Assembly: GCA_000023185.1 (NCBI GenBank)
Contig: CP001622.1
Location: 3,286,001-3,350,000, forward strand
Source of the DNA: Rhizobium leguminosarum bv. trifolii WSM1325
GTDB lineage: Bacteria > Pseudomonadota > Alphaproteobacteria > Rhizobiales > Rhizobiaceae
Direction: 5' to 3'
DNA: 64,000 bases
Below are positions 24,156-47,147 of the stretch, one piece after another; positions within the stretch are counted from its first letter, which is position 1; every line of letters starts with the position of its first letter. Under the pieces are notes generated by a model. That model saw only the letters and a program-made list of their open reading frames with translations. It had not been told where the DNA came from and did not search any database. The translations under genes and the position numbers were made by a program.

Positions 24156-25868
<1,713 letters not shown>

Positions 25869-28828: not shown

Positions 28829-29524
28829 TCAGACAGTCAGGTGGCGGCGGGCCTCCGGCGTATCCAGCGTCTCGGCAAGCCCTTCATGCACGATTTCGCC
28901 GCGGTCCATGATGTAGACATAGTCGGCAAGCTCGCGGCAGAAATCGAGATACTGCTCGACGAGCAGGATCGCCATGCCTGTGGAGTCGCGCAAATAGCGG
29001 ATCGCCCTGCCGATATCCTTGATGATCGATGGCTGAATGCCCTCGGTCGGCTCGTCGAGCACGAGAATCCTCGGCCGCGTCACCATGGCCCGCCCGATCG
29101 CCAGCTGCTGCTGCTGCCCGCCGGAAAGATCGCCGCCGCGACGTGACAACATCGACTTCAGCACCGGGAAGAGACTGAAGATGTCATCGGGGATGTTGCG
29201 GTCGCGGCGGCCAAGCGGAGCAAAGCCGGTTTCGAGATTTTCCTTGACTGTCAGCAGCGGAAAGATTTCGCGTCCCTGCGGCACATAGCCGATGCCCTGC
29301 TTGGCGCGGGCAAAGGGTGGCAGGCCGTTGAGCTTGGTATCATTGAAGGTGACGGTACCGGCCGACAGCGGATGCTGGCCGGTAACGGCGCGCAGAAGAG
29401 AACTCTTCCCCACGCCGTTACGCCCCAGCACGCAGGTAATCTTGCCCATCTCCGCTTTGATCGAGATGCCGCGCAGCGCCTGAGCGGCGCCGTAGTGGAG
29501 GTTTGCGTTTTCGACTGTCAGCAT
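28829..29524 (-). CDS. urtE: Urea ABC transporter ATP-binding protein UrtE
   Basis: This 231-residue ATPase is the LivF-like half of the urea importer. It shows Walker A GRNGVGKSS, signature LSGGQQQQLAIGRAM and Walker B ILVLDEPTEGIQP. The TEGIQPSIIKDIG stretch is characteristic of UrtE. The start at 29524 has AGGAGA upstream; the longer reading to 29572 runs into repeat DNA. It is separated from urtD by 224 bp containing a 35-bp inverted repeat. Confidence 0.92.
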   Translation of the reverse strand: MLTVENANLHYGAAQALRGISIKAEMGKITCVLGRNGVGKSSLLRAVTGQHPLSAGTVTFNDTKLNGLPPFARAKQGIGYVPQGREIFPLLTVKENLETGFAPLGRRDRNIPDDIFSLFPVLKSMLSRRGGDLSGGQQQQLAIGRAMVTRPRILVLDEPTEGIQPSIIKDIGRAIRYLRDSTGMAILLVEQYLDFCRELADYVYIMDRGEIVHEGLAETLDTPEARRHLTV

Positions 29525-29560
29525 GATGCCGTCTCCTGAATCTTTGCGGGTCCAAAAAAG

Positions 29561-29712
29561 ACCCCTCCCCAACCCCTCCCCACAAGGGGGAGGGGCAAAC
29601 TCGGAGCCGCCGTCCCACTTCTCAGGAGATCATAGGAAAGCTGGCAATCGTAGCGATGAGCGAGCGCCGGGGTTAAGCCCCTCCCCCTTGTGGGGAGGGG
29701 TTGGGGAGGGGT
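29561..29712. repeat. Perfect 35-nt inverted repeat between urtD and urtE
   Basis: The arm at 29561-29595 (starting ACCCCTCCCCAACCCCTCCC) is the exact reverse complement of 29678-29712, with 82 nt between. Each arm also has its own small CTCCCCACAAGGGGGAG hairpin. It is the same design as the element at 10797-10979 but a different sequence subfamily. Confidence 0.75.
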
Positions 29713-29748: not shown

Positions 29749-30513
29749 TCACCGCCCCAAATAGTTCTCGATGACCTTCGGATCCGAACTCACAAAATCG
29801 ATCGATCCCTCTGCCAGCACCGATCCCTCAGCAAGGCAGGTCACCTTGACGCCGAGGTCTCGGATGAAGCCCATGTCATGTTCGACGACGACGACCGACC
29901 GGGTTTTGGCGATATCCTTGAGCAGGATCGCGGTTTCCGCCGTCTCCGCATCGGTCATGCCGGCCACCGGCTCGTCGACCAGCAACAGCTTCGGCTCCTG
30001 CGCCAAGAGCATGCCGATCTCCAGCCATTGCTTCTGCCCGTGCGAGAGATTGGCGGCGAATTCGTCACGGCGATGCGTCAGCCGCACCGTTTCGAGGATC
30101 TCCTCGATGCGCGTCTTGTCCTCGCCCGAAAGCCGGTAGAACAGTGTTGAGAACACGCCGCGACGGCGGTTCAGCGCCAGCTCCAGATTGTCCCACACCG
30201 TATGGCTCTCGAAGACCGTCGGCTTCTGGAACTTGCGGCCGATGCCGAGCTGGGCGATATCGGCCTCGTCCTTCTTGGTAAGATCGATCGTGCCGTTGAA
30301 GAACACCTCGCCCTCGTCGGGCCTGGTCTTGCCGGTTATGATATCCATCATCGTCGTCTTGCCGGCGCCGTTCGGGCCGATGATGGCGCGAAGCTCGCCG
30401 GGTTCGATGACGATCGACAGCGAATTCAGCGCCTTGAAGCCATCGAAGGAAACCGAGACGCCGTTGAGGTAAAGCACGCTGGTGGGTTTGTCGTCGGGGA
30501 TCATGGCGCTCAC
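29749..30513 (-). CDS. urtD: Urea ABC transporter ATP-binding protein UrtD
   Basis: This 254-residue LivG-like ATPase has Walker A GPNGAGKTT, signature LSHGQKQWLEIGMLL (typical for UrtD) and LLLVDEPVAGMTDAE. The GTG start at 30513 overlaps the urtC stop by 4 bp; an ATG at 30504 is the alternative. It pairs with UrtE to energise urea import through UrtBC. Confidence 0.94.
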   Translation of the reverse strand: MSAMIPDDKPTSVLYLNGVSVSFDGFKALNSLSIVIEPGELRAIIGPNGAGKTTMMDIITGKTRPDEGEVFFNGTIDLTKKDEADIAQLGIGRKFQKPTVFESHTVWDNLELALNRRRGVFSTLFYRLSGEDKTRIEEILETVRLTHRRDEFAANLSHGQKQWLEIGMLLAQEPKLLLVDEPVAGMTDAETAETAILLKDIAKTRSVVVVEHDMGFIRDLGVKVTCLAEGSVLAEGSIDFVSSDPKVIENYLGR

Positions 30514-31673
30514 TCCGCTGCCTGGATTTTCGGCTCGATGCCATCTTCCTCAGCCGCCGATGGTGCCACCTTGGAGACGACCTTCCGCTTGCCGAGATAT
30601 TGGGCGATCGTGCCAACGACCCCCTTGGGCAAGAACAGCGTGACGGCAACGAAGAGGCCGCCGAGCGCAAACAGCCAGAACTCCGGGAAGAGGCCGGTGA
30701 AGATCGTCTTGCCGCCGTTGACGAGGATCGCGCCGATGATCGGACCTATCAGCGTCGCCCGCCCACCGACCGCCGTCCAGATGACGACTTCGATCGAATT
30801 GGCAGGCGCGAATTCGCCGGGATTGATGATGCCGACCTGCGGCACGTAGAGCGCGCCGGCAATACCGGCCATCATCGCCGAGACGACGAAAGTGAAGAGC
30901 TTGAAATGCTCGACGCGGTAGCCGAGGAAGCGCGTGCGGCTTTCGGCATCGCGTACGCCGACCAGCACCTTGCCGAACTTCGAGCGCACGATCGCCGAGG
31001 CGATCAGCAGCGATAGAGCCAGGAAGATCGCAGTTGCCGCAAAGAGGACTGCACGCGTGCCGTCAGCCTGGACGCTAAAACCGATAATGTCCTTGAAATC
31101 GGTAAGGCCGTTGTTGCCGCCGAAGCCCATGTCGTTGCGGAAGAAGGCCAGCAGCAGCGCATAGGTCATCGCCTGGGTGATGATCGAGAGATAGACGCCG
31201 TTGACGCGTGAGCGGAAGGCAAACCAGCCGAAGACGAAGGCGAGCAGGCCGGGCACGACGAGCACCATCAGCGCCGCAAACCAGAAATGGTTGAAGCCGA
31301 ACCAGAACCAGGGCAGATCCTTCCAGTTCAGGAACACCATGAAGTCGGGCAGAACAGGATCTCCGTAGCTGCCGCGCGTGCCGATCTGGCGCATCAGATA
31401 CATGCCCATCGCATAGCCGCCGAGCGCAAAGAAGGCACCGTGGCCGAGGGAGAGGATACCGCAGAAGCCCCAGACGAGATCAAGCGCCAGCGCCAGCAGC
31501 GCATAGGTCAGATACTTGCCGAACAGCGACATGATATAAGTCGGCACGTGCAGCGGATTGCTCGGCCCCGTCATCAGGTTCAGGACCGGCACAAGAACCG
31601 CGACCAGAAGCAGGAGGGCGATGGCAATGACGATCTTTCGATCGAGTGATCGGAGAAGGAAGGCCGTTATCAT
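30510..31673 (-). CDS. urtC: Urea ABC transporter permease UrtC
   Basis: The 387-residue LivM-type permease has about ten hydrophobic segments. DLVWGFCGILSLGHGAFFALGGYAMGMYL is conserved in UrtC. The ATG at 31673 overlaps the urtB stop (ATGA). The transport path for urea is formed with UrtB. Confidence 0.94.
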   Translation of the reverse strand: MITAFLLRSLDRKIVIAIALLLLVAVLVPVLNLMTGPSNPLHVPTYIMSLFGKYLTYALLALALDLVWGFCGILSLGHGAFFALGGYAMGMYLMRQIGTRGSYGDPVLPDFMVFLNWKDLPWFWFGFNHFWFAALMVLVVPGLLAFVFGWFAFRSRVNGVYLSIITQAMTYALLLAFFRNDMGFGGNNGLTDFKDIIGFSVQADGTRAVLFAATAIFLALSLLIASAIVRSKFGKVLVGVRDAESRTRFLGYRVEHFKLFTFVVSAMMAGIAGALYVPQVGIINPGEFAPANSIEVVIWTAVGGRATLIGPIIGAILVNGGKTIFTGLFPEFWLFALGGLFVAVTLFLPKGVVGTIAQYLGKRKVVSKVAPSAAEEDGIEPKIQAAE

Positions 31674-33307
31674 GCTTCCACCGCCCTTCCTTTGAGTGCG
31701 AAGAGCCCGCGGGGACGCTTCTGGATGAAGAGAATGATGAGGACGAGCACCAGGATCTTGCCGAGCACCGCGCCGGCGAAGGGCTCGAGGAACTTGTTGA
31801 CGACGCCGAGCGAGAGTGCACCGACCAGCGTGCCCCAGAGATTGCCGACACCGCCGAAGACGACGACCATGAAGCTGTCGATGATGTAGGATTGACCGAG
31901 GTTCGGCGAGACATTGTCGATCTGGCTGAGCGCCACGCCGGCGATGCCGGCAATGCCCGAGCCGAGCGCGAAGGTGAAGGCATCGACCCAGCCGGTGCGG
32001 ATGCCCATCGACGACGCCATGCGCCGGTTCTGCGTAACGGCACGCATCTGCAGGCCGAAGGCGGACCGTTTGAGCAGCAGGAGCAGCGCCACAAAGACCA
32101 CCATCGAAAAGACGATGATCCACAGTCGGTTCCACGTGATGGAGAGCCCGCCGAGATCGAAGACGCCGGACATCCAGGTCGGATTGCGGACCTCGCGGTT
32201 GGTCGGGCCGAAGCTGCTGCGCACCGCCTGCTGCAGGATCAGCGACACGCCCCAGGTGGCGAGCAGCGTTTCGAGCGGCCGGCCGTAGAGATAGCGGATG
32301 ACGGCGCGCTCGATCACCAGACCGACGAAGCCGGTAAAGACGAAGGCCGCAGGCACGGCAAAGGCCAGCGAATAATCGGCAAGTTCAGGAAAGGCGGAAG
32401 TAATGTATTCCTGCACCACATAGGTGGTGTAGGCGCCGATCATCACCATTTCGCCATGCGCCATGTTGATGACGCCCATGACGCCGAAGGTGATGGCAAG
32501 GCCGATCGCGGCAAGCAGCAGGACCGAGCCGAGAGACAATCCGTACCAGATGTTCTGGACGATATCCCACAGCGCCAGGCTGCGATTGATGGAGCTGATA
32601 TCCGCCTGGATCGCCGGCTTCAGGTCGTCAGGCGCGGTTTCGAGTGTGGTCGTGAGGATGGTCAGCGCATCGCGATTGCCGCGCGCCGCGATCGTATCGA
32701 TCGCAGCCTTCTTGTCTTCGACGCTCGCATCCGTCTTGAGCAGCAGCACTGCGCGCGCCGCTTCCATCGTATTCTTGATCTCAGCGTCCTTTTCGGCCGC
32801 AAGCGCCGAGTTCAGCAGGTCGAGATTGGCGGGATCGGCATCTTTCAGGAGGCCCTGCGCCGCGGCAAGCCGCGCGGAGCGGTCCGGGCTCATCAGCGTC
32901 AGCTGGCTGGTGGCGGCGCCGATGACGCCGCGAAGCGCGTTGTTGATCTTCACCTTCGTCATCAGATCCGGATCGACATCGGCAGCGGCTTCGCCGGTGA
33001 TCGGATCGGAATAGGTCGGTTCGTCATCGGTACCGCCCTGGAGAAGAACCGGGCCGCCATCGGAATTGACGTAGAGAAGGCCGTCGCTCAACTGCTGCAG
33101 GATCTGGCTGACATGCGGATCCTTGGAAGCGACCAGCGCCTTGATGGCCTCTTCGCGTTCCGGGAAGTCGCCGACGCCGAGCGCGTCGATAAGCACGTGG
33201 ATATCATCCTGGGCATGGACTTCGCTCGAGATTATCACGCCCGAAAATGTCAGGCCCGAAAATGTCAGGCAAACCGTGATGAGGAAAATCTTTATGGCGC
33301 GATACAT
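31670..33307 (-). CDS. urtB: Urea ABC transporter permease UrtB
   Basis: This 545-residue LivH-type permease has a signal-peptide-like start and an N-terminal extension of about 240 residues that is exported and helical. The extension is a family trait of UrtB. The permease core follows (NIWYGLSLGSVLLLAAIGLA, then GVMGVINMAHGEMVMIGAYT). It is 115 bp downstream of urtA, with a stem-loop between them. Confidence 0.93.
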   Translation of the reverse strand: MYRAIKIFLITVCLTFSGLTFSGVIISSEVHAQDDIHVLIDALGVGDFPEREEAIKALVASKDPHVSQILQQLSDGLLYVNSDGGPVLLQGGTDDEPTYSDPITGEAAADVDPDLMTKVKINNALRGVIGAATSQLTLMSPDRSARLAAAQGLLKDADPANLDLLNSALAAEKDAEIKNTMEAARAVLLLKTDASVEDKKAAIDTIAARGNRDALTILTTTLETAPDDLKPAIQADISSINRSLALWDIVQNIWYGLSLGSVLLLAAIGLAITFGVMGVINMAHGEMVMIGAYTTYVVQEYITSAFPELADYSLAFAVPAAFVFTGFVGLVIERAVIRYLYGRPLETLLATWGVSLILQQAVRSSFGPTNREVRNPTWMSGVFDLGGLSITWNRLWIIVFSMVVFVALLLLLKRSAFGLQMRAVTQNRRMASSMGIRTGWVDAFTFALGSGIAGIAGVALSQIDNVSPNLGQSYIIDSFMVVVFGGVGNLWGTLVGALSLGVVNKFLEPFAGAVLGKILVLVLIILFIQKRPRGLFALKGRAVEA

Positions 33308-33422: not shown

Positions 33423-34715
33423 TCAGGAGCCCTTGCCACCGCACTTGCCCGTAGCGACGTTGAAGTTGCCGCAGGACATCGGCTTGCGCCAATCGGAGAT
33501 CAGATCCTTGGAGTCAGGCAGGAAATCTGACCATTCGTCGCCGACGACGGCAGGTGTCTGCTGGACGATTTCGAATTGGCCGTCGGCCTGGATTTCACCG
33601 ATCAGCACCGGCTTGGTGATGTGGTGGTTCGGCATGACGGTCGCATAACCGCCGGAGAGGTTCGGAACGCTGACGCCGATAATGGTGTCGAGAACCTTGT
33701 CGGTATCGGTCGTGCCGGCAGCCTGGACGGCCTTAACCCATGCATTGAAGCCGATATACGCAGCTTCCATCGGGTCGTTCGTCACGCGCTTGTCGTTCTT
33801 GGTGAAAGCGTGCCAGTCCTTGATGAACTTCTTGTTCGCCGGGCTTTCGACCGACTCGAAGTAGTTCCAGGCAGCGAGATGGCCGACGAGCGGCTTGGTG
33901 TCGAGGCCGGCAAGCTCTTCTTCGCCAACCGAGAAGGCGACGACGGGGATGTCGGTTGCCTTGATGCCCTTGTTGCCCAGTTCCTTGTAGAACGGAACGT
34001 TGGCATCGCCGTTGATCGTGGAAACGACGGCGGTCTTCTTGCCGGTCGAACCGAATTCCTTGATCTTGGAAACTTCGGTCTGCCAGTCGGAGAAGCCGAA
34101 CGGCGTGTAGTTGGTCATGATGTCTTCTTTCGGAATACCCTTCGAAATCAGGTATGCCTCGAGAATCTTGTTGGTCGTGCGCGGATAAACGTAGTCCGTA
34201 CCTTCGAGAACGAAGCGCTTGACGCCTTCTTTTTCCATCAGGTAGTCGACAGCAGGAATGGCCTGCTGGTTCGGAGCAGCACCGGTGTAGAAGATGTTGC
34301 GCGAGGACTCTTCGCCTTCATACTGGACCGGGTAGAAGAGGATCGAGTTGGTCTCTTCGAAAACCGGCAGAACGGACTTGCGCGACGAGGACGTCCAGCA
34401 ACCGAAGACGGCGGCAACCTTGTCCTTCTGGATCAGCTCACGTGCCTTTTCGGCAAATAGCGGCCAGTCGGAAGCCGGGTCGACGACGACGGCCTCGAGC
34501 TTCTTGCCGAGAAGGCCGCCCTTCTTGTTCTGCTCGTCGATGAGCATCAGCATGGCGTCCTTGAGCGTGGTCTCGGAGATGGCCATGGTGCCGGAAAGCG
34601 AGTGCAGAATGCCGACCTTGATCGTATCGTCGGCGGCAACCGCACCGCTGAAGGCAGCCGAGGCCGCCATGACGGCGCCGAGTGCAGCGCCCGCAATAGT
34701 AGTTCTGAGATTCAT
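33423..34715 (-). CDS. urtA: Urea ABC transporter substrate-binding protein UrtA
   Basis: The 430-residue periplasmic protein has a signal peptide (cleavage after AFSGAVA, about residue 27) and begins its mature part DDTIKVGILHSLSGTMAIS. It continues with KGGLLGKKLEAVVVDPASDW and FGCWTSSSRKSVLPVFEE, all typical of UrtA. It captures urea or short-chain amides for UrtBCDE. First gene of the cluster; I looked for a sigma-54 (GG-N10-GC) promoter upstream and did not find one. Confidence 0.95.
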   Translation of the reverse strand: MNLRTTIAGAALGAVMAASAAFSGAVAADDTIKVGILHSLSGTMAISETTLKDAMLMLIDEQNKKGGLLGKKLEAVVVDPASDWPLFAEKARELIQKDKVAAVFGCWTSSSRKSVLPVFEETNSILFYPVQYEGEESSRNIFYTGAAPNQQAIPAVDYLMEKEGVKRFVLEGTDYVYPRTTNKILEAYLISKGIPKEDIMTNYTPFGFSDWQTEVSKIKEFGSTGKKTAVVSTINGDANVPFYKELGNKGIKATDIPVVAFSVGEEELAGLDTKPLVGHLAAWNYFESVESPANKKFIKDWHAFTKNDKRVTNDPMEAAYIGFNAWVKAVQAAGTTDTDKVLDTIIGVSVPNLSGGYATVMPNHHITKPVLIGEIQADGQFEIVQQTPAVVGDEWSDFLPDSKDLISDWRKPMSCGNFNVATGKCGGKGS

Positions 34716-34859
34716 CTGGTTGAGCCCCTCTTCTTGTTCCGCAACAGGCCGGAAACGGAGATTAACTGTTGCTTAAGGGACTATCGGGTGCTGCAGCGCA
34801 AAAACACATACGCAAAATGACGTAGGCGCGGGGGTCAAACAGGCAGGCCGGAGAAGGAA

Positions 34860-34901: not shown

Positions 34902-36806
34902 TTATCCGTCGATCGTCAAGGTGACGGATGTCGGGCCATAGGAGAGGCTCGCCTTGTGGCCGGAGACGGTGACCTTGCCGAAGGTGCCGGTCACGGCACC
35001 CGCCTTGAGGATTTCGATCTTCGTTCCGGGCGTCGGGGCATAACCGTCGACAAGCGTCACGGCGAGGTCGCCGGCCAGCGCCGCCTTGCCCTCGACGACC
35101 AGTGTCCCCGCGCCGTTTGCGCCGAGCGCCGGCTTCGTCGTGGCATTGGCGAGCTGCTGATAATCGCCGCTCACGGTCAACGGCTTGTCGGCCGCCAAAA
35201 CGAGCGAGCCACCGTTGACCGTCAGCCCGCCACGACCGAAGGCCGACGACGACAGGGCCACCAGCGCGCCCTCTTCCAGCATGGTGCCGCCGGAATAGCT
35301 GTTGGCGCCCGACAGCCCGAGGATGCCGTTGCCACGCTTCACCAGCCTGCCCCTGCCGGTGATGTCGTTCCGCCAGGTGTCGATCGAATTGAACCCGCCC
35401 TTTGCCGCGTCCATCGTCACGGTCACGTCCTGTTCGAACGCACCGTAACCGTCGGCGGCGGCAAACAGGTTGAGACGGCCGTAACCTTCCGCATCGTCGA
35501 GCAGCGGATAGCCGGAGGCGATCTCCGTCGTCTTCAGCACATCGCGGCGCTGCTCGCCGTCCAGATAGGGCAGACGCGTTTCGAGAAGCGCTTCGGCGCC
35601 CTGCGGCACGCGCGCCGGTTGATCGGTCGCATGGATCGTCGGCAGGCCGTAGCTCAGGCGCTGCAGCACGTAGGCACGATTGGCGTCATGATCGGCGAAA
35701 CGGTCTGCAGCGAGCGGTGCCGCGTGGGCGGCAACCTCGAGCGCACCCGCATCCGCAACGCCTGATTTGGCGACGAGCCATGACTGCGCTTGGGCGTAGG
35801 CATCGCTCTTCAGCGCCGCATTGTCGGCCTTGTTCAGATTGTAGACGACCGTGGCGGTGCCGAGCATGCGGCCGCCCATCACGTCGAGCGGAGAATGCAT
35901 GCCGGCGAGAATACGGTCTTCACCCAGCTCGCTGGCGCGCGTGATCATTTCCTGAAAGCGCTGCGGCACGAGATAGGCCATGGCGAGCGCATCCCGCCAG
36001 GCTTCCGCCGTATGCCCGCTCGGGAAACCACCATCCTCGACCGGCTTGCCGCTCTTGGCGGGCTCCAGCGTCGGAACGACCGACACGTCCTGGCTCCAGC
36101 GGTAGGGACGGCCATATTTGAAATAGCGTTTTGCGGGCTCCGTCGAGCCGTCACCGCTTGCGGCGTTGATGAAGTCGATTGCAAGGCCCATGTCGGGATT
36201 GGCATCGGTCTTGTTTTCCGTGTCCGGCTTGCTGCCGGCGCCGCGATTGTTGCCCTTGTCGTCATATTTGGCCGTCGTCGCGTCGGCCGCCACCTCGGTG
36301 ATCGTGGTGGTCTGCTTCGAGCCGGCCTTCCAGGCATCCGTCAGCGGACCGAGGCCATCGACGATGCTGGCATTCTTGCCGCGCCGATCGTCGAGATAGG
36401 CGGCGACGGCCTGATCGGCCGTCCGCGCCCGCGTTGCTTTGACGACATAGGCGATGTTGGCGTCATGGACGGCCTGGTTGAGGATATGGCCGTCGGTCTT
36501 GCTGGAAGGAATGCCGTCCCAATCCGTCTTGGCAACCGCCGGGCAATTATCCTTGGCCGGGGCTTCGACACCCGCATCGACGAAAGGCGTGCGCGGGGTC
36601 CAGATTTCGAGGAAGCCGGAGAGGAGGCGAACGGCAGCGTTGGTGTCCACCGTCGAGAAGCAGGCGTCACCGCGTTTGTTGGTGTTTCCGGCCTGCGCAT
36701 AAGGCGCTTTCGCCGCCGTGGCCTGCTCGGCGCCGGCAAGCGAGGGCACGATGGAAAGGAGGCAGACGAGGGCGGTGCTCAGGCGGAAAAAGCTTAAAAC
36801 AGACAT
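34902..36806 (-). CDS. Secreted PAP2-type acid phosphatase with autotransporter-associated repeat
   Basis: This 634-residue protein has a signal peptide (cleavage near SLAGAEQ). Phosphatase motifs occur in order: KYGRPYRW, GGFPSGHTAEAW with His265, and RILAGMHSPLDVMGGR, the three PAP2/class A acid phosphatase signatures. From about residue 480, GNGILGLSGANSYSGGTML is an autotransporter-associated beta-strand repeat, and the C-terminus stays beta-rich. No 12-strand beta-barrel domain follows, so export through the outer membrane is unexplained. It lies divergent from the permease-kinase gene. Confidence 0.85.
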   Translation of the reverse strand: MSVLSFFRLSTALVCLLSIVPSLAGAEQATAAKAPYAQAGNTNKRGDACFSTVDTNAAVRLLSGFLEIWTPRTPFVDAGVEAPAKDNCPAVAKTDWDGIPSSKTDGHILNQAVHDANIAYVVKATRARTADQAVAAYLDDRRGKNASIVDGLGPLTDAWKAGSKQTTTITEVAADATTAKYDDKGNNRGAGSKPDTENKTDANPDMGLAIDFINAASGDGSTEPAKRYFKYGRPYRWSQDVSVVPTLEPAKSGKPVEDGGFPSGHTAEAWRDALAMAYLVPQRFQEMITRASELGEDRILAGMHSPLDVMGGRMLGTATVVYNLNKADNAALKSDAYAQAQSWLVAKSGVADAGALEVAAHAAPLAADRFADHDANRAYVLQRLSYGLPTIHATDQPARVPQGAEALLETRLPYLDGEQRRDVLKTTEIASGYPLLDDAEGYGRLNLFAAADGYGAFEQDVTVTMDAAKGGFNSIDTWRNDITGRGRLVKRGNGILGLSGANSYSGGTMLEEGALVALSSSAFGRGGLTVNGGSLVLAADKPLTVSGDYQQLANATTKPALGANGAGTLVVEGKAALAGDLAVTLVDGYAPTPGTKIEILKAGAVTGTFGKVTVSGHKASLSYGPTSVTLTIDG

Positions 36807-36984
36807 GGTGATATCCGAAATAGTTGAACGAACGCCGGAGAGTTAGAGCTGTTATGTGAAAGATCAATTGCAAAAATATTGCCATTCTGTGAACCAGCTG
36901 GTGCCCGCCTCTTGCCTTTCCCATCCATCCCGCCAAAACTGCCGAAGAGACGATGAGCCCAACCGGAATGCCGGAAAGGAAGAC

Positions 36985-39900
36985 ATGGCAGCGCGCCAAC
37001 GCATCATTCCGGTAAGACGCGAATATAATCGCTGGGTCGCCAACCAGACGCTGGAAGATTATGCGCTGCGCTTCACTGCCAAGAGCGCCCGCCATTTTTC
37101 CTCACAGCGCATCTCACAGACGGCGATCGGCGCAATCTCCTTCCTGGCGCTGGAGGCGATCGGCGGCGCGATCACGCTTTCCTACGGCACCACCAACGCC
37201 TTTTACGCCATCATCGTCGCCTCGATCGCCATGCTGGCGATCGGCCTGCCGATAAGCCGCTACGCCATCCGCCACGGCGTCGACATCGATCTTCTGACGC
37301 GCGGCGCGGGCTTCGGCTATATCGGCTCGACCATCACCTCACTGATCTATGCAAGCTTCACCTTCATGCTGTTTGCGATCGAGGCTTCGATCATGTCCGG
37401 GGCGCTGGAGCTCACCCTCGGCATCCCGCTCTGGATCGGCTACATCATCAGTGCCGTCATGGTGATCCCCCTGGTGACGCACGGCGTGCGGCTGATCAGC
37501 AAGTTCCAGCTGATGACCCAGCCCTTCTGGATCGTGCTGAATATCCTGCCTTTCATCTTCATCGCCTTGCTGGATTGGGAAAAATTCGATCTCTGGCGCG
37601 CCTTTGCCGGCATCCGTCATGCCTCCGGCCCGCCCGGCACCGTCGCCGAGTTCGATCTCGTGGAGTTCGGCGCCGCCTCCGCCGTCATCCTGGCGCTGAT
37701 GTCGCAGATCGGCGAACAGGCCGACTTCCTGCGCTTCCTGCCGCCGGACCCGCAGCGCAAGTGGCGCCACCGCCTGGCGATCTTTCTCGCCGGCCCCGGC
37801 TGGGTCATCATCGGCGCGCCCAAGTTGCTTGCCGGTTCATTTCTGGTCGTGCTGACCTTCACCTCGGGCGTCCCCCTCGATCGCGCCGCCGACCCGGCAC
37901 AGATGTATCTGACCGCCTTCGGCTACATGGTCCCCTGGCACAATGCCGCGTTGCTGTTGATGGCGGCCTTCGTCGTCGTCTCACAGCTAAAGATCAATGT
38001 GATGAACGCCTATGCAGGTTCGCTCGCCTGGTCGAACTTCTTCTCGCGGCTGACCCACAGCCATCCCGGCCGCGTCATCTGGCTGGTGTTCAACGTCGCG
38101 ATTGCCCTGCTTTTGATGGAACTCGGCATCTACCGGCTGCTGGAGGAGACGCTCGGCATCTTCTCGATCATCGCCATGGCCTGGCTCTGCACGATCTCCG
38201 CCGATCTCTTCATCAACAAGCCGCTGGGGCTGGCTCCCCCCGGCATCGAGTTCAAGCGCGCGCATCTCTACGACATCAACCCGGTCGGCCTCGGCGCCAT
38301 GACGCTATCGGCGACGGTGTCGCTGATTGCCCATTTCGGTGCCTTCGGCGAGATCGCCGCCTCGCTCGCTCCCTATATTACCCTCGTCGTCGCGCTGGTC
38401 GCCTCGCCTGTCATCGCCTGGGCAACGAAAGGCAAGTTCTATCTCGCCCGCAAGCCGCGCCAGAGCTGGAAGAACCTGACGAACATCACCTGCTCGGTCT
38501 GCGAGCATCCCTTCGAGCCGGAGGATATGGCCTGGTGCCCGGCCTATGCCGCGCCGATCTGCTCGCTCTGCTGCTCGCTCGACAGCCGCTGCCACGACAT
38601 GTGCAAGCCGGCCGCCCGTTTCAATGCGCAAGTCGGCACCGTCGCCAAGGTGCTGCTGTCTGAAACCATCATCGAGAAGCTGACGACGCGTCTCGGCCGC
38701 TACGGCATCGCCGTCGTGCTGGCATTGACCGCCATCGGCGCGATCCTGGCGATGATCGCCCATCAGGTCGCCTCCGCCTCCCCTGAGACGGCCGAGGTCG
38801 TCAACCGCACCATCTTCATCGTCTTCTTCGTCTTCTCGGTGATCGCAGGCGTCGTCTGCTGGTTCTATGTGCTCGCCCATGACAGCCGCGTCGTTGCCGA
38901 GGAGGAATCCTCACGCCAGAACACGCTGCTGCTCAAGGAAATCGCCGCCCATAAGAAGACCGACGCTGCCCTGCAGAACGCCAAGGAAACGGCCGAGGCC
39001 GCCAACCGCGCCAAGAGCCGCTATGTCGTCGGGCTCAGCCATGAATTACGCACGCCGCTGAACGCCGTGCTCGGCTACGCCCAGATCCTCGAACGCGACG
39101 AGACCATTCCGGCGCCGCGCCAGTCCTCGATCAAGGTCATCCGCCGCAGCGCCGAACACCTCTCCGGGCTGATCGACGGCCTGCTCGATATTTCCAAGAT
39201 CGAAGCCGGCCGCCTGCAGGTCTATTCCAACGAGATCAACATCCAGGATTTCCTCGACCAGATCGTCGATATGTTCCGGCCACAGGCGCAGGCAAAGGGG
39301 CTCGCCTTCATCCATGAGCGCGCGCCGGCCTTGCCGCAATTCGTCCGCACCGACGAAAAGCGCCTGCGCCAGATTCTCGTCAACCTGCTCTCCAATGCCA
39401 TCAAGTTCACTGACGAGGGCAGCGTCACCTTCGATGTCGGCTATCGCAGCCAGGTCGCGACCTTTACCGTCGCCGATACCGGCCGAGGCATCACCGAGAA
39501 AGACCTGCCCCGCATCTACGAACCCTTCCAGCGCGGCGAGGCCGAAAGCGTGCGGCCAATGCCGGGGCTCGGCCTCGGCCTCACCATCACCCGGCTTCTG
39601 ACCAACACGCTCGGCGGCGAGATCTCGGTTTCAAGCGTGAAGGAGGAAGGCTCGACCTTCCGCGTCCGGCTGATGCTGTCCGCCGTCATGCGCGCAGTGG
39701 CCGCAGCGCCGCAGGAGAAGCGCATCGTCGGTTATGACGGCCCGCGCCGCACGATCGTCGTCGTCGATGATAACGAGGACCACCGCGAGATGATGCGCGA
39801 GATCCTGGCGCCGCTCGATTTCATCGTGCTGACGGCGGCAGGCGGCGGCGAATGCCTGACGCTGATCGAGGGCATCATGCCGGACCTTTTCCTCGTCGAT

Positions 39901-40371
39901 ATCCTGATGCCCGGCATGAACGGCTGGCAGCTCGTCTCGCGTCTGCGCGAGGCCGGACAGACAGCGCCAGTGCTGATGCTGTCGGCCAATATCGGTGATG
40001 CGGCCGTTCTCAGCGACAGTGACGACAGCCACAATGATGCGATCGGCAAGCCGGTCGACATCCGCCAGCTGCGCGACAAGCTCGCCCTGCATCTCGGCCT
40101 GACATGGATCTATGCCGATGCCATGCCAACCGTCCCTGTCAAGATCGAAGCGCCGATGCTGAGCCCAGGTGCTGCCCATGTGCAGGAATTGCTGCGGCTC
40201 GGCGAGATCGGCTATATCAGAGGCATCGAAGCCAAGCTTTCGGACCTTGCCAAGGTGGAGGCAAATCAGCCATTCACGGAGGAACTTCGCGCCTATGTCG
40301 CCGCCTTCGATCTCGCCGGCTTCATGACCTTCCTGCACGACTTCGACGAAAAGGTGGAATCCATTGGCTGA
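36985..40371 (+). CDS. NCS1 permease-histidine kinase-receiver fusion (hybrid sensor)
   Basis: This 1128-residue membrane protein has four parts. Residues 1-485 resemble an NCS1 nucleobase/hydantoin permease with about 12 helices. Residues 503-540 hold eight cysteines (503, 506, 518, 526, 529, 530, 536, 540), spaced like a zinc or iron-sulfur site. Two more helices (about 575-645) precede a HisKA domain with phospho-acceptor His686 in SHELRTP, then a HATPase with DTGRGI and GLGLGLTI. A receiver carries Asp972 (LVDILMPGM), and a tail of about 100 residues follows. The start at 36985 has GGAAAGGAAG upstream. It resembles in concept CbrA, which fuses a different permease family to a kinase. The ligand is unknown; neighbours suggest a nitrogen compound. 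Confidence 0.85.
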   Translation: MAARQRIIPVRREYNRWVANQTLEDYALRFTAKSARHFSSQRISQTAIGAISFLALEAIGGAITLSYGTTNAFYAIIVASIAMLAIGLPISRYAIRHGVDIDLLTRGAGFGYIGSTITSLIYASFTFMLFAIEASIMSGALELTLGIPLWIGYIISAVMVIPLVTHGVRLISKFQLMTQPFWIVLNILPFIFIALLDWEKFDLWRAFAGIRHASGPPGTVAEFDLVEFGAASAVILALMSQIGEQADFLRFLPPDPQRKWRHRLAIFLAGPGWVIIGAPKLLAGSFLVVLTFTSGVPLDRAADPAQMYLTAFGYMVPWHNAALLLMAAFVVVSQLKINVMNAYAGSLAWSNFFSRLTHSHPGRVIWLVFNVAIALLLMELGIYRLLEETLGIFSIIAMAWLCTISADLFINKPLGLAPPGIEFKRAHLYDINPVGLGAMTLSATVSLIAHFGAFGEIAASLAPYITLVVALVASPVIAWATKGKFYLARKPRQSWKNLTNITCSVCEHPFEPEDMAWCPAYAAPICSLCCSLDSRCHDMCKPAARFNAQVGTVAKVLLSETIIEKLTTRLGRYGIAVVLALTAIGAILAMIAHQVASASPETAEVVNRTIFIVFFVFSVIAGVVCWFYVLAHDSRVVAEEESSRQNTLLLKEIAAHKKTDAALQNAKETAEAANRAKSRYVVGLSHELRTPLNAVLGYAQILERDETIPAPRQSSIKVIRRSAEHLSGLIDGLLDISKIEAGRLQVYSNEINIQDFLDQIVDMFRPQAQAKGLAFIHERAPALPQFVRTDEKRLRQILVNLLSNAIKFTDEGSVTFDVGYRSQVATFTVADTGRGITEKDLPRIYEPFQRGEAESVRPMPGLGLGLTITRLLTNTLGGEISVSSVKEEGSTFRVRLMLSAVMRAVAAAPQEKRIVGYDGPRRTIVVVDDNEDHREMMREILAPLDFIVLTAAGGGECLTLIEGIMPDLFLVDILMPGMNGWQLVSRLREAGQTAPVLMLSANIGDAAVLSDSDDSHNDAIGKPVDIRQLRDKLALHLGLTWIYADAMPTVPVKIEAPMLSPGAAHVQELLRLGEIGYIRGIEAKLSDLAKVEANQPFTEELRAYVAAFDLAGFMTFLHDFDEKVESIG

Positions 40372-41281
40372 GCCGGCCCTCCCCCGCGACATCGTTCTGC
40401 TCGTCGACGACTCGGCCGAAGCACTCGGCTTCATGACTGACGCGCTCGAACAATCCGGCTTCTCCGTGCTGATCGCCACGTCGGGTGCGGCAGCCCTTGG
40501 TATCGTCGAGCGCATCACGCCCGATCTTATCCTGCTCGACGCGGTGATGCCCAGCATGGATGGCTTCGAGACCTGCCGCCGGTTGAAGGCGAACGCCACA
40601 GTAGCGCAGGTGCCTGTCGTCTTCATGACCGGCCTGACCGAGACCGAGCATGTTGTGCACGCGCTGGAATCGGGCGGCGTCGATTATCTCAGCAAACCGA
40701 TCAACATCGATGAACTGCGCGCCCGCATCCGCGTCCATCTGCGCAATGCCCGCTCGGCCCAAAGCGCCCGCATCGCCCTGGACGCGGCTGGCCGTCATCT
40801 GCTGGCAGTCAAGGGCGACGGCGCCATCCACTGGTCAACGCCGCAGGCGACACGGCTGGTCAATGCCGCCATGGGCAGCGACGACGGCATGGAAATCGTC
40901 GTGCGCCATATCGCCGGCTGGATGCACGACCGCGTCGCAGCGGTGCGCGACGGCATCATCTCGATCGCCCATGCCGGCCAGGCGGCGCTGCAGCTCGCCT
41001 TCCTCGGCGCAATCGGCCCTGACGAATATCTCTTCCGCCTCACCGCCGCCAGTCAGCGCAGCGACGACGAGGTGCTGCGCCAGCGCTTTTCGCTCACCCA
41101 GCGCGAATCCGAAGTGCTGCTCTGGATCGCCAAGGGCAAGGCCAACCGCGACATCGGTGAAATATTGGGACTGTCGGCGCGGACGGTGAACAAACACCTC
41201 GAACAGATTTACGTGAAGCTCGGCGTCGAGAACCGGGCCTCGGCCGCCGTGAAAGCCACGCATGTGCTGTACGAGATGTAA
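40364..41281 (+). CDS. Response regulator, REC + LuxR-type HTH
   Basis: The 305-residue protein has an N-terminal receiver (LLVDDSAEAL, acceptor Asp59 in LLDAVMPSM, FMTGLTETE, and the conserved Lys of YLSKPIN). A linker of about 100 residues and a C-terminal LuxR-type helix-turn-helix (LTQRESEVLLWIAKGKANRD) follow. The TTG start lies inside the end of the permease-kinase gene (8-bp overlap), which strongly indicates they form one two-component system. Its target genes are unknown; the nearby urea cluster is a candidate. Confidence 0.88.
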   Translation: MAEPALPRDIVLLVDDSAEALGFMTDALEQSGFSVLIATSGAAALGIVERITPDLILLDAVMPSMDGFETCRRLKANATVAQVPVVFMTGLTETEHVVHALESGGVDYLSKPINIDELRARIRVHLRNARSAQSARIALDAAGRHLLAVKGDGAIHWSTPQATRLVNAAMGSDDGMEIVVRHIAGWMHDRVAAVRDGIISIAHAGQAALQLAFLGAIGPDEYLFRLTAASQRSDDEVLRQRFSLTQRESEVLLWIAKGKANRDIGEILGLSARTVNKHLEQIYVKLGVENRASAAVKATHVLYEM

Positions 41282-42522: not shown

Positions 42523-43644
42523 TTACATGCCCTGCGGGAAGTAGCTGTACTTGCCGTCCGGACCCTTCTTCCATTCGTACATGATGTAGCCAGGAATCTT
42601 CGGGTCGCCCTTTTCGTCGAACGAAATGTCGCCGAGAACGGTCGGGAACGGGCCCTTTTCCTTCATGGCCTTGGCAACGGCCTCAGGATCCAGCGAACCG
42701 GCAGCCTTGGCGGCTCCGGCGATCGTCTGCATCGCAGCGTAGGAATAGAGCGTGTAGGCTTCCGGATTGAAACCAGCGGCCTTGAACTTTTCGACGAGTT
42801 CCTTGTTCGCAGGGTTCGCCGTCGGATCCGGGCCGAAGGTGTTCAGCGTACCGGCAACGGCGTCGCCAGCGATCGAGGCCAGTTCGTTCGAAACGATACC
42901 GTCGCCCGAAACCAGCGTCGCCTTCAGGCCCTGGTCGGCCGCCTGGCGGATGATGAGACCGGCTTCGGTGTGCAGACCACCCCAATAGATGATCGAGACG
43001 CCGGCTTCCTTCATCTTGGCGATGAGTGCCGAGAAGTCCTTGTCGCCGACATTGATGCCTTCGTAAATGACTTCGGTGACGCCGGCGGCGTTCATAGCCT
43101 TCTTGGTTTCGTCGGCAAGGCCCTGACCGTAAGGTGTCTTGTCGTGAACGACAGCGATCTTGGCGTCCTTGAAGTGATCGGCAAGATACTTGCCGGCGAT
43201 GGCACCCTGCTGGTCGTCACGGCCGCAGGTGCGGAACGTGTTCCAGAGGCCCCGTTCCGTGAAGGTCGGGTTCGTCGCGGCCGGGGTGATTTCGAGGATG
43301 CCGTTTTCGGCATAGACTTCCGAAGCCGGGATCGAAACGCCCGAGTTGAAGTGGCCGATGACGAACTTGACGCCGTCAGCGGCGAACTTGTTGGCGACCG
43401 AAATGCCCTGCTTCGGGTCGGAGACGTCGTCGCCGAGCTCGATCTTGATCTGCTCGCCGTTGATGCCGCCAGCCGCGTTGATGTCGGCGGCTGCCTGTTC
43501 GGCACCCTTCTGGAGCTGAGCGCCGAATGCGGCGTTCGGTCCAGTCAGTGGACCAGCGACAGCGATGAGAACGTCGGCCCACGCGTTGCCGCTGAAGGCG
43601 ACCATCGCCGTCAGAGCCACTGCCGACAGAAGAGACTTCTTCAT
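42523..43644 (-). CDS. braC: Branched-chain amino acid ABC transporter binding protein BraC
   Basis: The 373-residue periplasmic protein has a signal peptide ([20 protein letters not shown], cut after AWA) and a type I periplasmic fold. [17 protein letters not shown] and [19 protein letters not shown] are typical of LivJ/BraC. The gene order permease, permease, ATPase, ATPase, binding protein matches the braDEFGC locus of R. leguminosarum. There the system is known to transport a broad range of amino acids, not only branched-chain ones. Confidence 0.92.
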
Positions 43645-43764
43645 ATTATTACTCCCAATTTTTGGGCGGGTTCCGGTCCAAGGCCCAGCGCACTACCCAC
43701 CATTGACTGCGCCAGGAAAGCTGTTCCACTCGGAAGGCAATTCATGCCTAGTTTCAACGGACTG

Positions 43765-44118
43765 TCAATGTTTGTCCTTCCACGAAAACGCGGAAGTTTT
43801 TTCGTACAGCCAGTAATAGTTGTTAACCATCTGATTGGTGCGGCGGTAACGGAAGCCGGCCGTCGAGAACACCAACAGCGTCACAAAGTCGAGGATATAG
43901 TAGAAGGCGTTGAGCATCGGCCCATTGAACAGGGCATGATGCAGGAACTGCATCGCCCAGGCGAGCAGGAATGTATAGACGATGACCAACGGATAGTCGG
44001 CCCAGCCTTCGGCAACCGCTTTGCCGGCGCGCCAGGCCGTCCAAAAGCCTAAGAGCAAGACGATGACACGGATCGCCACAAGGGGGCCGGCATCCGCTTC
44101 GAAGAAAAGTCCCTGCAT
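43765..44118 (-). CDS. Small membrane protein of the bra operon (DUF6867-like)
   Basis: The 117-residue protein has three hydrophobic segments (about 10-28, 45-65, 75-90) and an aromatic C-terminus (NQMVNNYYWLYEKTSAF). It lies between braG (19 bp upstream) and braC (120 bp downstream), so it is co-transcribed with the transporter. Similar small proteins occur in liv clusters of other Rhizobiales. The function is unknown; the family name is from memory. Confidence 0.7.
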   Translation of the reverse strand: MQGLFFEADAGPLVAIRVIVLLLGFWTAWRAGKAVAEGWADYPLVIVYTFLLAWAMQFLHHALFNGPMLNAFYYILDFVTLLVFSTAGFRYRRTNQMVNNYYWLYEKTSAFSWKDKH

Positions 44119-44137
44119 GTCAAACTCTCCTTTCCAC

Positions 44138-44881
44138 CTAGTGTCTTCCGCCTTCGAGATAGGCGGCGCGGACCTCGGGATTGGCAAGAAGCTCCTTGCC
44201 GGAGCCGCTCATCGTCACCTTGCCGTTCACCATCACGTAGGCGCGGTGAGAAAGCCTGAGGGCGGCGAATGCGTTCTGCTCGACGAGGAAAACGGTCAGC
44301 CCCTCCGCCTCGTTGAGCTTTTTGATCGCCTCGAAGATGCCCTTGACGATCAGCGGCGCGAGACCGAGCGAGGGTTCGTCGAGAAGCAGCAGCTTCGGGC
44401 GCGCCATCAGCGCGCGGCCGATCGACAGCATCTGCTGTTCACCGCCCGAAAGTGTTCCGCCCCGCTGGGCGTGACGTTCCTTGAGACGCGGGAAGAGCGT
44501 GAAGATCTTCTCGACGTCTTCGGCGAAGTGTTTCAGATTGTCGAGGCCAGCGCCCATCTGAAGGTTTTCCAGAACCGTCATGCGCGGGAAGATGCGGCGG
44601 CCTTCCGGTGACTGTGCAATGCGCAGACGGGCGATTTCATGCGTCGGCATGTGGGTGATGTCGCGGCCCTCGAAGACCACCGAACCGGTGCGGGCCTGCG
44701 GGCTGCCGCAGATCGTCATCATCAGTGTCGACTTGCCGGCGCCGTTGGCGCCGATCAGGCTGACGATCTCGCCCTTGTTGACGTGGACATCGACGCCGGC
44801 CAGCGCCCGGATATTGCCGTAATAGGTTTCGACGCTATTCACCTGAAGGAGCGGTTGACCCGTCATTACTTCATCGCCCAT
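44138..44881 (-). CDS. braG: Branched-chain amino acid ABC transporter ATPase LivF/BraG
   Basis: The 247-residue ATPase shows Walker A GANGAGKST, signature LSGGEQQMLSIGRAL and LLLLDEPSLGLAP. The last is typical of LivF. Its ATG shares one base with the stop of braF (TGATG), so translation is coupled. Confidence 0.94.
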   Translation of the reverse strand: MGDEVMTGQPLLQVNSVETYYGNIRALAGVDVHVNKGEIVSLIGANGAGKSTLMMTICGSPQARTGSVVFEGRDITHMPTHEIARLRIAQSPEGRRIFPRMTVLENLQMGAGLDNLKHFAEDVEKIFTLFPRLKERHAQRGGTLSGGEQQMLSIGRALMARPKLLLLDEPSLGLAPLIVKGIFEAIKKLNEAEGLTVFLVEQNAFAALRLSHRAYVMVNGKVTMSGSGKELLANPEVRAAYLEGGRH

Positions 44882-45756
44882 CAGTTTGCGCCTCCCTCGA
44901 GCTGCTCGACGGCTGCGATCACCTCTTCCACTTCTTCATCCTCGACACCGAGATAGGCCGCGATGACCCGCGGATCGTTCTTCACGTGATCCGGTGTGCC
45001 ATCGGAAATCTTCTGACCGTATTCGAGGACGACGACGTGGTCGGAGATTTCCATGACCACGGACATGTCGTGCTCGATCAGAAGGATCGACGTTCCGGTT
45101 TCGGCGCGAATGCTCTTCAGCAGTGCGTTGAGCGTTGCCGATTCCCGTGGGTTGAGGCCGGCAGCCGGTTCATCGAGGCAGAGCAGCTCCGGACCGGTGC
45201 ACATGGCGCGGGCAATTTCGAGACGCCGCTGGGCGCCGTAGGGCAAATCGCCGGCGGGGTCGTCGGCGCGGTCGATCAGATCGGCCTTCTCGAGCCAGAA
45301 ACGGGCGAGTTCGATTGCCGCAGCCGCTTCCCGCCTGTAGGGGCCGACACCGATAAGGCCGAGGATCGTATAACCCGATGCCTTCATCAGCTTGTTGTGC
45401 TGGGCAACCAGAAGGTTTTCGAGAACGGTCAGGCCGGAGAACAGCCGGATGTTCTGGAAGGTGCGTGCGACCTTGGCTTCCCTGGTGATGCGAAAGTCCG
45501 GCAGGCGCTCCAGCAGGTATTGCTTGCCGCTCTTCTGGTTGAACGTGATCATGCCCATCGTCGGCTTGTAGAAGCCGGTGATGCAGTTGAAGACGGTGGT
45601 CTTGCCGGCGCCGTTCGGCCCGATCAGCGCGGTGATATCGCCACGCTTGGCTTCGAAGGAGAAGTCGTTGATGGCCATCAGGCCGCCGAACTTCATCGAC
45701 AGGTGTTCGACCTTGAGAAGAGTGTCGTCAGACATCGTATTCGTTACGGGGCTCAT
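44881..45756 (-). CDS. braF: Branched-chain amino acid ABC transporter ATPase LivG/BraF
   Basis: The 291-residue ATPase shows Walker A GPNGAGKTT, RTFQNIRLFSGLTVLENLL (LivG signature region) and LLCLDEPAAGLNPRES. The ATG at 45756 overlaps the braE stop by one base. About 35 acidic residues at the C-terminus extend it beyond LivG of E. coli. Confidence 0.94.
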   Translation of the reverse strand: MSPVTNTMSDDTLLKVEHLSMKFGGLMAINDFSFEAKRGDITALIGPNGAGKTTVFNCITGFYKPTMGMITFNQKSGKQYLLERLPDFRITREAKVARTFQNIRLFSGLTVLENLLVAQHNKLMKASGYTILGLIGVGPYRREAAAAIELARFWLEKADLIDRADDPAGDLPYGAQRRLEIARAMCTGPELLCLDEPAAGLNPRESATLNALLKSIRAETGTSILLIEHDMSVVMEISDHVVVLEYGQKISDGTPDHVKNDPRVIAAYLGVEDEEVEEVIAAVEQLEGGAN

Positions 45757-47147
45757 CAACCATGCCCCTCCTTGATGAAGCTTCCGGATATCGCCTTGCG
45801 CTCTCTGAGGAAGGCTGTCGGCTCACGCGAGCCGACGAAGCCGCGCGGCTTGAACAGCATGACGACGACCATGGCGAGGCCGAAGATCAGCATGCGGTAG
45901 AGTTCCGGCGTAAAGTCGGGTCCGAAGATGAGTTTTAGGAAGTCCATGCTGCGCAACAACTCGGTGCCGCCGACCATGACGATCGCGGCAATCGCGATGC
46001 CGGTCAACGAACCCATGCCGCCAAGAACGACGATGGCGAGAATGACGGCCGATTCCAGGAAGACAAAGGATTCCGGCGAGACGAAGCCCTGCCGGGCGGC
46101 GAAGAACGAGCCGGCGAAACCGGCAAACATCGCGCCCGTCGCAAAGGCGGTCAGCTTGGTCGTCACCGTGTTGATGCCGAGCGAACGGCAGGCGATCTCG
46201 TCTTCGCGCAAAGCTTCCCAGGCGCGTCCAATCGGCATGCGGCGTAGCCGGATGGTGACATAGGCCGTCAGCATGCAGAGCATCAGAATAAGATAGAAAA
46301 GGAAGATCTTGTAGTAGGCCGAGGAGGGCGGCAGGTGAAAGAGCTTGGCAAAACCGCCGGCCGTCGCATCGAAAGGAATGCCGAAGAGTGTTGCCTTCGG
46401 GATGCTCGATATACCGAAGGTGCCCCTCGTCACGTCAGTCCAGTTGATGAGGACGAGACGAATGATTTCACCGAAGGCAAGCGTCACGATGGCGAGGTAA
46501 TCGCCGCGCAGGCGCAGCACCGGGAAGCCGAGAATGACGCCCCAGAGTGCCGCGAAGATGCCCGAAAGCGGCAGCAGCACCCAGAAGGATAGGCCGAAAT
46601 AGCTCGAAAGCAGCGCGTAGGAATAAGCGCCGACGGCATAGAAGGCGACATAGCCGAGATCGAGCAGGCCGGCGAGGCCGACGACGATATTCAGCCCCCA
46701 GGCGAGCATCACATAGATCAGGATCTGGATGCCGAAATTGTCGACATATGTCAGCGAGCCCTGAGGGCCCTTAATCGCCACCACCACCAGGGGATAAAGC
46801 AGCAGCGCGATCAGCGCGATCTTCAGGAAATGCCGGTGGAAGAAGCTCTTCTCTGTCGAGATGTCGAGTTCGCCCTGTCTCGCCTTTGCCAGCTTGCGGC
46901 TGTCGAGATGCGGCCGCAGGAAAACCACCGTGGCGAAGCGGCCGATGGCGGCGACCGCAACGAAGATCGCAAGCAGGCCCCAGCGCTGGACGATGATCAA
47001 CTCGTTGCTGATGTTCTGGTCGGTCTTGAGGCCGACATAGAGAACGAACATGCCGAACGACAGGACGGCGGCGAAAAGAGCTTCGGTAAGGCCTTTGCGG
47101 ACAAGTCCGGCATCGGGCTTGCCTGCAGAATTTTCAATGTTTGCCAT
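45756..47147 (-). CDS. braE: Branched-chain amino acid ABC transporter permease LivM/BraE
   Basis: The 463-residue permease has an N-terminal extension of about 120 residues with two to three helices before the conserved LivM core ([21 protein letters not shown]). [16 protein letters not shown] is the conserved cytoplasmic loop touching the ATPases. Overlaps braF. Confidence 0.93.

Follow-up and report, generated by a model that had tools for sequence, protein, structure and literature searches.

A candidate urea- and amide-responsive two-component system with an NCS1-related sensor domain in Rhizobium leguminosarum

Within a 64,000-nucleotide stretch of the Rhizobium leguminosarum bv. trifolii WSM1325 genome (contig CP001622.1, positions 3,286,001 to 3,350,000), referred to here as the window and numbered from its first letter, the gene at 36985-40371 (+) encodes a hybrid sensor histidine kinase of 1128 residues. 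By translation, Pfam and structure modelling, this protein comprises an NCS1-like permease domain, an eight-cysteine (Cys) module, a transmembrane (TM) hairpin, HisKA, HATPase_c and receiver (REC) domains, and a C-terminal tail. We propose, with a probability of about 0.6, that the kinase and the REC-LuxR regulator encoded beside it form a two-component system of the transceptor type that responds to urea and short-chain amides, controlling urtABCDE and linked urease or amidase genes. The kinase keeps its domain order and its gene partners across distant genomes, and a palindrome upstream of urtA tracks the kinase and regulator; this conserved linkage and shared cis element, with exceptions set out below, suggest that these sensors as a set regulate urt, urease and amidase genes.

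Architecture of the sensor kinase and its regulator

Translation of 36985-40368 gives 1128 residues uninterrupted by stops and is followed by a TGA codon at 40369-40371, bearing out the first-pass annotation of a single fusion protein. An alternative in-frame GTG start lies upstream at 36856 and would give 1171 residues; the ATG at 36985 coincides with the start of most homologues in the alignment. Pfam and the alignment place HisKA at residues 677-742 and HATPase_c at 789-898 (together 39013-39678, +), and Response_reg at 924-1033 (39754-40083, +). The phospho-acceptors assigned in the first pass, His686 and Asp972, are upheld across 156 aligned loci, histidine being present in all 156 and aspartate in 152, with a gap in the other four. 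These loci, oriented on the kinase, consist of 80 sample loci minus four with only unrelated weak matches, plus 80 further ones (kept of 590, and spanning Rhizobium to Bradyrhizobium, Methylobacterium and a Zhongshania).

A search of other genomes recovered the same permease-Cys-kinase order in homologues down to about 40% identity, the most distant of which (884-894 residues) lack the receiver, so that chance is not an issue for this architecture. A Rhizobium leguminosarum entry and the counterpart in Rhizobium johnstonii 3841 (L222) each share 98% identity with the kinase, which is single-copy in the 7.4 Mb genome, where the other 80 matches begin at a query residue of at least 574. Pfam recognises no domain in the first 605 residues, and none passes the E 0.001 cut-off between the permease and HisKA (no STAC profile was compared), a stretch made up of the Cys module and the TM hairpin. 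The hairpin, at about residues 569-632 in the structure model (38689-38880, +), matches the two further membrane helices proposed initially. In the distant set, up to 73 loci whose kinases are at most 60% identical, mean identity is highest in the Cys module (68%), followed by the permease (58%) and kinase (56%) regions; it is 40% in REC (69 loci) and lowest, at 28%, in the hairpin.

The REC-LuxR (GerE) response regulator gene (40364-41281, +) has a TTG start and encodes 305 residues, with Response_reg at 11-123 and GerE at 243-298 in Pfam. Its frame overlaps the kinase gene by 8 bp (40364-40371), as first noted. By tblastn a REC-LuxR gene directly follows the kinase gene on the same strand in 150 of the 156 loci; its apparent absence from 16 loci was mostly an artefact of gene calling.

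An NCS1-related permease domain

Residues 1-490 (36985-38454, +) were first annotated as an NCS1-type permease. Pfam is blind to this assignment: Transp_cyt_pur (PF02133) gives no match at E ≤ 10 in residues 1-605, in a search whose HMMER filters drop most matches above about 0.1. Fold and profile comparison nevertheless support a relationship to NCS1 transporters, the modelled domain having a 12-helix NCS1/LeuT fold and a distant profile similarity to the family at approximately 17% identity, with CodB (cytosine) and Mhp1 (hydantoin) as the closest solved folds. A phmmer search of the permease against PDB sequences returned weak, unrelated rows, mostly Gs-alpha constructs and one uracil-DNA glycosylase, with a best E of 0.0099. 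The SLC5/SSS family finds no comparable support, as there is no PF00474 match and hhalign against a profile of 25 SSS-family loci gives a probability of 1.3%.

The expectation that ligand residues would persist holds in part. Taking the ligand-stacking residues of CodB and Mhp1 from the available text of PMC9379551, the base-stacking TM3 tryptophan and TM6 aromatic of CodB align to L/F129 and M/V/I239, a residue pairing that is approximate at 17% identity, and no TM3 tryptophan occurs in the inspected columns of the 156-locus alignment. Thr278 and Thr279 of the CodB Na2 site align to N341 and A342, beside a five-residue gap. Since the stacking aromatics are not kept and the pairing is approximate, we call the domain NCS1-related rather than an NCS1 transporter. 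Other polar residues of TM1, TM3, TM6 and TM8 (E57, T126, E133, Q241, E244, Q245, D247, N338 and N341) vary little or not at all, regardless of the enzyme genes nearby.

Stand-alone relatives of the permease were not found at E ≤ 1e-10 in the class-level search, in which 25 of 26 rows fell in frames of 1124-1243 residues and one in a 281-residue frame. Weak permease matches in four Rhizobiaceae genomes were considered as stand-alone NCS1 relatives and set aside; of the three scanned, two are AgcS sodium:alanine symporters and one carries a mechanosensitive-channel domain, the fourth (L058) lying outside the scan.

An invariant eight-cysteine module

The module at residues 503-540 (38491-38604, +) contains cysteines 503, 506, 518, 526, 529, 530, 536 and 540, spaced C-x2-C-x11-C-x7-C-x2-CC-x5-C-x3-C, with the two originally described CxxC pairs at 503/506 and 526/529. 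All eight are present in 156 of 156 aligned loci, as is Asp514, while Asp538 is present in 155; in the distant set no part of the kinase is better conserved. From the 12-helix topology and the basic residues after the last helix, the module should face the cytoplasm. Its spacing presumably recalls cross-brace fingers. A model of the isolated module (63 sequences; predicted local distance difference test score 77.8) gives RING and PHD domains as its top Foldseek matches, weakly (best E 0.24), and Prok-RING_1 matches at E 3.7; a comparison of the Cys profile with PDB sequences yielded mainly short pieces of C2H2 fingers. A metal or redox signal through the cysteines, as suggested in the first pass, is conceivable, but the spacing and the weakly RING/PHD-like model agree no less well with a structural zinc finger; a structural, coupling role seems more likely.

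A phylum-level search with the Cys profile gave 59 matches in 53 of 398 genomes, of which 57 are strong (52 genomes) and lie in frames of 894-1365 residues; the two weak ones (E 0.006 and 0.009) are in frames of 47 and 28 residues. Three loci whose matches start at profile position 19-26 (L135, L136 and L137) were considered as other fusions and turned out to carry the same kinase. Azoarcus AccS, considered as a Cys-redox analogue, was rejected: it has PAS motifs, and neither 'permease' nor 'symporter' occurs in the portion of PMC6456745 available.

Linkage to urea and amide genes

UrtA is in reach of the kinase in 137 of the 156 loci, well beyond this species, and urt, amidase (FmdA or AmiF) or urease genes are in reach in 147. 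The neighbourhood is thus non-random, and the early suggestion of a link to urt-ure gains from both this recurrence and the shared palindrome described below. Urease is the enzyme in reach in 39 loci and an amidase in 46, and no locus has both (UreA, UreB and UreD cluster labels being assigned by eye). NCBIfam confirms the cluster representatives for UrtA, UrtB, UrtC, UrtE, FmdA, the aliphatic amidase and UreC; the UreD representative has no match. Many distant loci have urtA directly next to the kinase gene and divergent from it.

The association also appears in an evenly drawn and less biased class sample, where the sensor occurs in 26 of 385 genomes at E ≤ 1e-10 and UrtA is found in 25 of these 26 genomes, against 67 of the 359 others (Fisher p 4e-16), the absence of the kinase from a genome resting on a first look with at most three candidates scored. 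When the coordinates are compared by hand, 21 of the 26 have UrtA no more than about 8 kb from the sensor. In the family sample 48 of 151 genomes match at E ≤ 0.001; removing G022, G027 and G133, which have weak matches alone (two were scanned and are unrelated), leaves 45, one of them with a fragment. This fragment (G050:C12:38142-39062) covers residues 133-441 at 82% identity in a 388-residue frame and is perhaps a decayed copy or an effect of assembly.

A palindrome upstream of urtA

A palindrome, TACGTCA-NN-TGACGTA, is common to the regions upstream of divergent urtA genes (106 loci, reduced to 86 by dereplication). In the window the pattern TACG-N8-CGTA occurs once, against 0.15 expected, as TACGCAAAATGACGTA at 34809-34824, 93 bp before the ATG of urtA, and we predict this to be the regulator box. 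Across the kinase-linked regions (550 bp) the pattern is present in 60 of 86, compared with 0-2 of 86 in 20 first-order Markov shuffles. It is absent from all 40 control urtA regions (1.4 kb), including 37 of 37 from kinase-less genomes (Fisher p 1e-14). These controls comprise 37 of the 67 kinase-less UrtA genomes, chosen in descending order of score with some omitted, and three second copies from kinase genomes, two of which reach matrix scores of 15.4 and 11.5. In leave-one-out matrix scoring, 64 of the 86 linked regions beat the best of all 40 controls (15.4), the best of the 37 kinase-less controls being 3.8. Where urtA does not adjoin the kinase gene the box can still be present, as in G138 (about 60 kb away, score 27.2), G071 (about 11 kb, 27.2) and the genome of L214 (outside the 10-kb flank, 30.9).

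Variants of the box occur in several loci. Upstream of urtA in L043, L045, L048, L160, L167 and L362, the left half TACGTCA is kept and the right half ends CTCCAT, CCCCAT or ACCCAT; in L043, L048 and L160 this half-variant is at -106 to -109. The urtA of G201 carries the half-variant, scoring 8.0. Some second urtA copies in kinase genomes carry variants ending GCAG (L347 in G319, 15.4; L346 in G192, 11.5; L366 in G416, 1.0), so that the same regulator may act on two uptake systems in certain strains. In G183 a strong box (score 25.5) stands upstream of the kinase gene itself (L161), where no urtA is linked, and autoregulation of that kinase is possible.

Proposed mechanism and points against it

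In the mechanism that we envisage, the NCS1-like domain would act as a receptor that binds urea or a related small amide and may or may not retain some transport. The ligand-induced change would reach the kinase by way of the eight-Cys finger on the cytoplasmic side and then the TM hairpin, and phosphate would pass from His686 to Asp972 and finally to the REC-LuxR protein. The latter would bind TACGTCA-NN-TGACGTA upstream of urtA and activate urtABCDE together with the urease or amidase genes lying with it. Urea or a short amide would be the most economical ligand, because urease loci and amidase loci are served by one set of nearly invariant pocket helices, and the substrates of both enzymes have an H2N-C(=O)- group in common.

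Several observations weigh against this proposal. The loci are interrelated, with two from some genomes and a few apparent duplicates, which inflates the counts and Fisher values, and the 37 control genomes are drawn from other families. The exact pattern is missing from 26 of the 86 linked regions, some of which keep one half (TACGTCA...CCCAT). A kinase-linked urtA in G607 has no box (score -9.4); in G183, G410 and G312, where kinase and urtA are on different contigs, there are weak forms at best (4.2, 2.8 and 4.2); and no box is seen at 11 of the 13 second urtA copies that kinase genomes carry. Nor is the strict palindrome enriched in the WSM1325 genome, where its three sites are no more than in a backward control; on that count the predicted regulon in this strain is narrow. 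Two of the sites were taken as chance: one lies inside a flagellin-like frame, named by eye (G000:C1:370343), and the other (C1:2004341-2004356; G000, L349) is far from urt, between a transglutaminase-like gene (by eye) and the next frame, where a second target is possible.

Nine of the 156 loci have no urt, amidase or urease gene in reach; four of these are stretches of 4.8-12.7 kb, and three belong to the genomes with a non-adjoining urtA named above (G138, G071 and that of L214). At the most divergent end of the family, four members (L051, L052, L138 and L139; about 40% identity) lack both urt and the REC-LuxR gene. A scan of the neighbours of L138 and L139 shows an OmpR-type regulator in both, with a REC-HisKA-HATPase protein as well in L138. 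All four kinases (884-894 residues, no receiver) stand beside an FmdA-cluster gene, so the amide theme persists, and they are possibly a second sub-type.

Alternative readings

The best-surviving alternative, which we consider unlikely, is that the permease senses a breakdown product of purines or pyrimidines (hydantoin, allantoin or a cytosine-like ring) and that urt-ure is controlled because urea is the end product of the pathway. CodB and Mhp1 as the closest solved folds, and the NCS1 profile match, would suit such a receptor, and a nitrogenous ring ligand was indeed the original suggestion. It is not supported by the sensor family: the aromatics that stack the ring in CodB and Mhp1 are not kept at the aligned positions, and no purine or pyrimidine gene was recognised by eye among the 19 most frequent neighbour clusters. 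The recurring enzymes there are urease or formamidase and aliphatic amidase, which points to urea or short amides.

Next in plausibility, and likewise unlikely, is a sensor of general nitrogen or carbon status or of transport flux, with control of urt and amidase genes merely its output. The use of one sensor type for urease and amidase loci alike would agree with this, but just one of the three strict palindromes in the genome lies beside a nitrogen gene, which better fits a narrow, substrate-induced operon.

It is improbable that the palindrome belongs to another, co-occurring regulator and that the linkage to urt reflects hitchhiking. Recognition of the box by the REC-LuxR protein is a prediction of our model, and the many second urtA copies without a box in kinase genomes would be compatible with a different regulator; against this stand the absence of the pattern from every kinase-less urtA region, its presence at non-adjoining urtA genes in three kinase genomes, and the regularity with which the REC-LuxR gene follows the kinase. 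Least plausible is a Cys module acting as the true sensor of zinc, nickel or redox state above a permease that is a mere membrane anchor, for although the invariance of the cysteines and the textbook requirement of urease for nickel would favour it, amidase-linked members keep the same cysteines, the weak fold matches suggest a RING/PHD-like zinc finger, and the TM1, TM3, TM6 and TM8 residues are about as invariant as the cysteines, which would be superfluous in an anchor.

Other genes in the window

The predicted target urtA, the substrate-binding protein of a urea ATP-binding cassette (ABC) transporter, is at 33423-34715 (-; TIGR03407 above cut-off), followed on the same strand by urtB (31670-33307, TIGR03409), urtC (30510-32135, TIGR03408 over residues 194-508), urtD (29749-30513, TIGR03411) and urtE (28829-29572, TIGR03410), with urtB, urtD and urtE likewise above cut-off. 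As the listed urtC frame overlaps urtB, its true start is probably later. Downstream of urt on the same strand lies ureC, the urease alpha subunit (24156-25868, -; TIGR01792 above cut-off). Between urtA and the kinase gene, a domain scan identifies a gene for a PAP2-domain protein with autotransporter-type PATR repeats (34902-36806, -), which is probably not part of the system. Downstream of the regulator, at 42523-47147 (-), is a branched-chain-amino-acid type ABC transporter (binding protein, LivM, LivG-like and LivF-like); its binding-protein cluster recurs in 41 loci, none with a kinase below 70% identity.

Comparison with known systems

In open-licence full-text literature, none of the matches listed names a urea or short-amide sensor for urtABCDE, an NCS1-kinase fusion, or the box. 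A pair in Dechloromonas aromatica, a 1131-residue histidine kinase and a 308-residue CheY-like protein (VIMSS583663/583664), is tabulated beside urtA in a urt-ure cluster, without domain description or function in the available part of PMC2907700; from size and place it is very likely the same system. If our proposal is right, sensor, regulator and DNA site are supplied together, in symbiotic rhizobia and other Pseudomonadota, and could be tested with one reporter plasmid. A further transporter family would have become a kinase receptor, which bears on how transporters turn into sensors, and the protein might offer a genetically encoded sensor of small amides.

The nearest counterparts are the SLC5/STAC kinases of the CrbS/CrbR, CbrA/CbrB and RpuS/RpuR systems, in which a transporter-type domain is likewise fused to a histidine kinase. 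As far as the accessible text of PMC5715377 goes, CrbS is a hybrid kinase, and CrbR, a regulator of the LuxR type, depends on an inverted repeat in the promoters that it targets, TACGACTAAAGTCTAAA being among the matched sequences listed for its motif; the fused transporter-type domain and the REC-LuxR partner are common to that system and ours, and the two sites are inverted repeats of a similar kind with different interiors. RpuS/RpuR is described, in the part of PMC9100948 available, as controlling a transporter operon in Sinorhizobium fredii. Unlike these kinases, the sensor here has an NCS1-related rather than an SLC5 permease, and its predicted targets are urea and amide genes. The position that STAC takes in CbrA (PMC13022988, available text) is the one that the eight-Cys module and TM hairpin take here. 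The transporter part of CbrA can mediate uptake while sitting on the kinase, according to the accessible portions of PMC13022988 and PMC7096432, and is thus a precedent for a transporter part capable of uptake on a kinase. The Kuenenia ammonium sensor kinase with an Amt domain (PMC5764959, available text) similarly has a transporter fold that is joined to a kinase and serves as the receptor of a nitrogen compound, and is set apart, by name, by its different transporter family. CodB and Mhp1 share the 12-helix fold and a distant similarity with the sensor, which differs in its approximately 17% identity, in not keeping the stacking Trp/Phe at the aligned positions, and in its Cys module and kinase. 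With slightly less than even confidence, we tentatively suggest that these features mark a family of specific urea-sensing systems across the Pseudomonadota, in which an NCS1-type transporter fold turned dedicated receptor for urea and short amides, a RING/PHD-like zinc module coupling it to the histidine kinase where the SLC5 kinases have STAC, and a regulator box of its own at urea and amide uptake operons would make up a second, independently recruited class of transporter-kinase transceptors.

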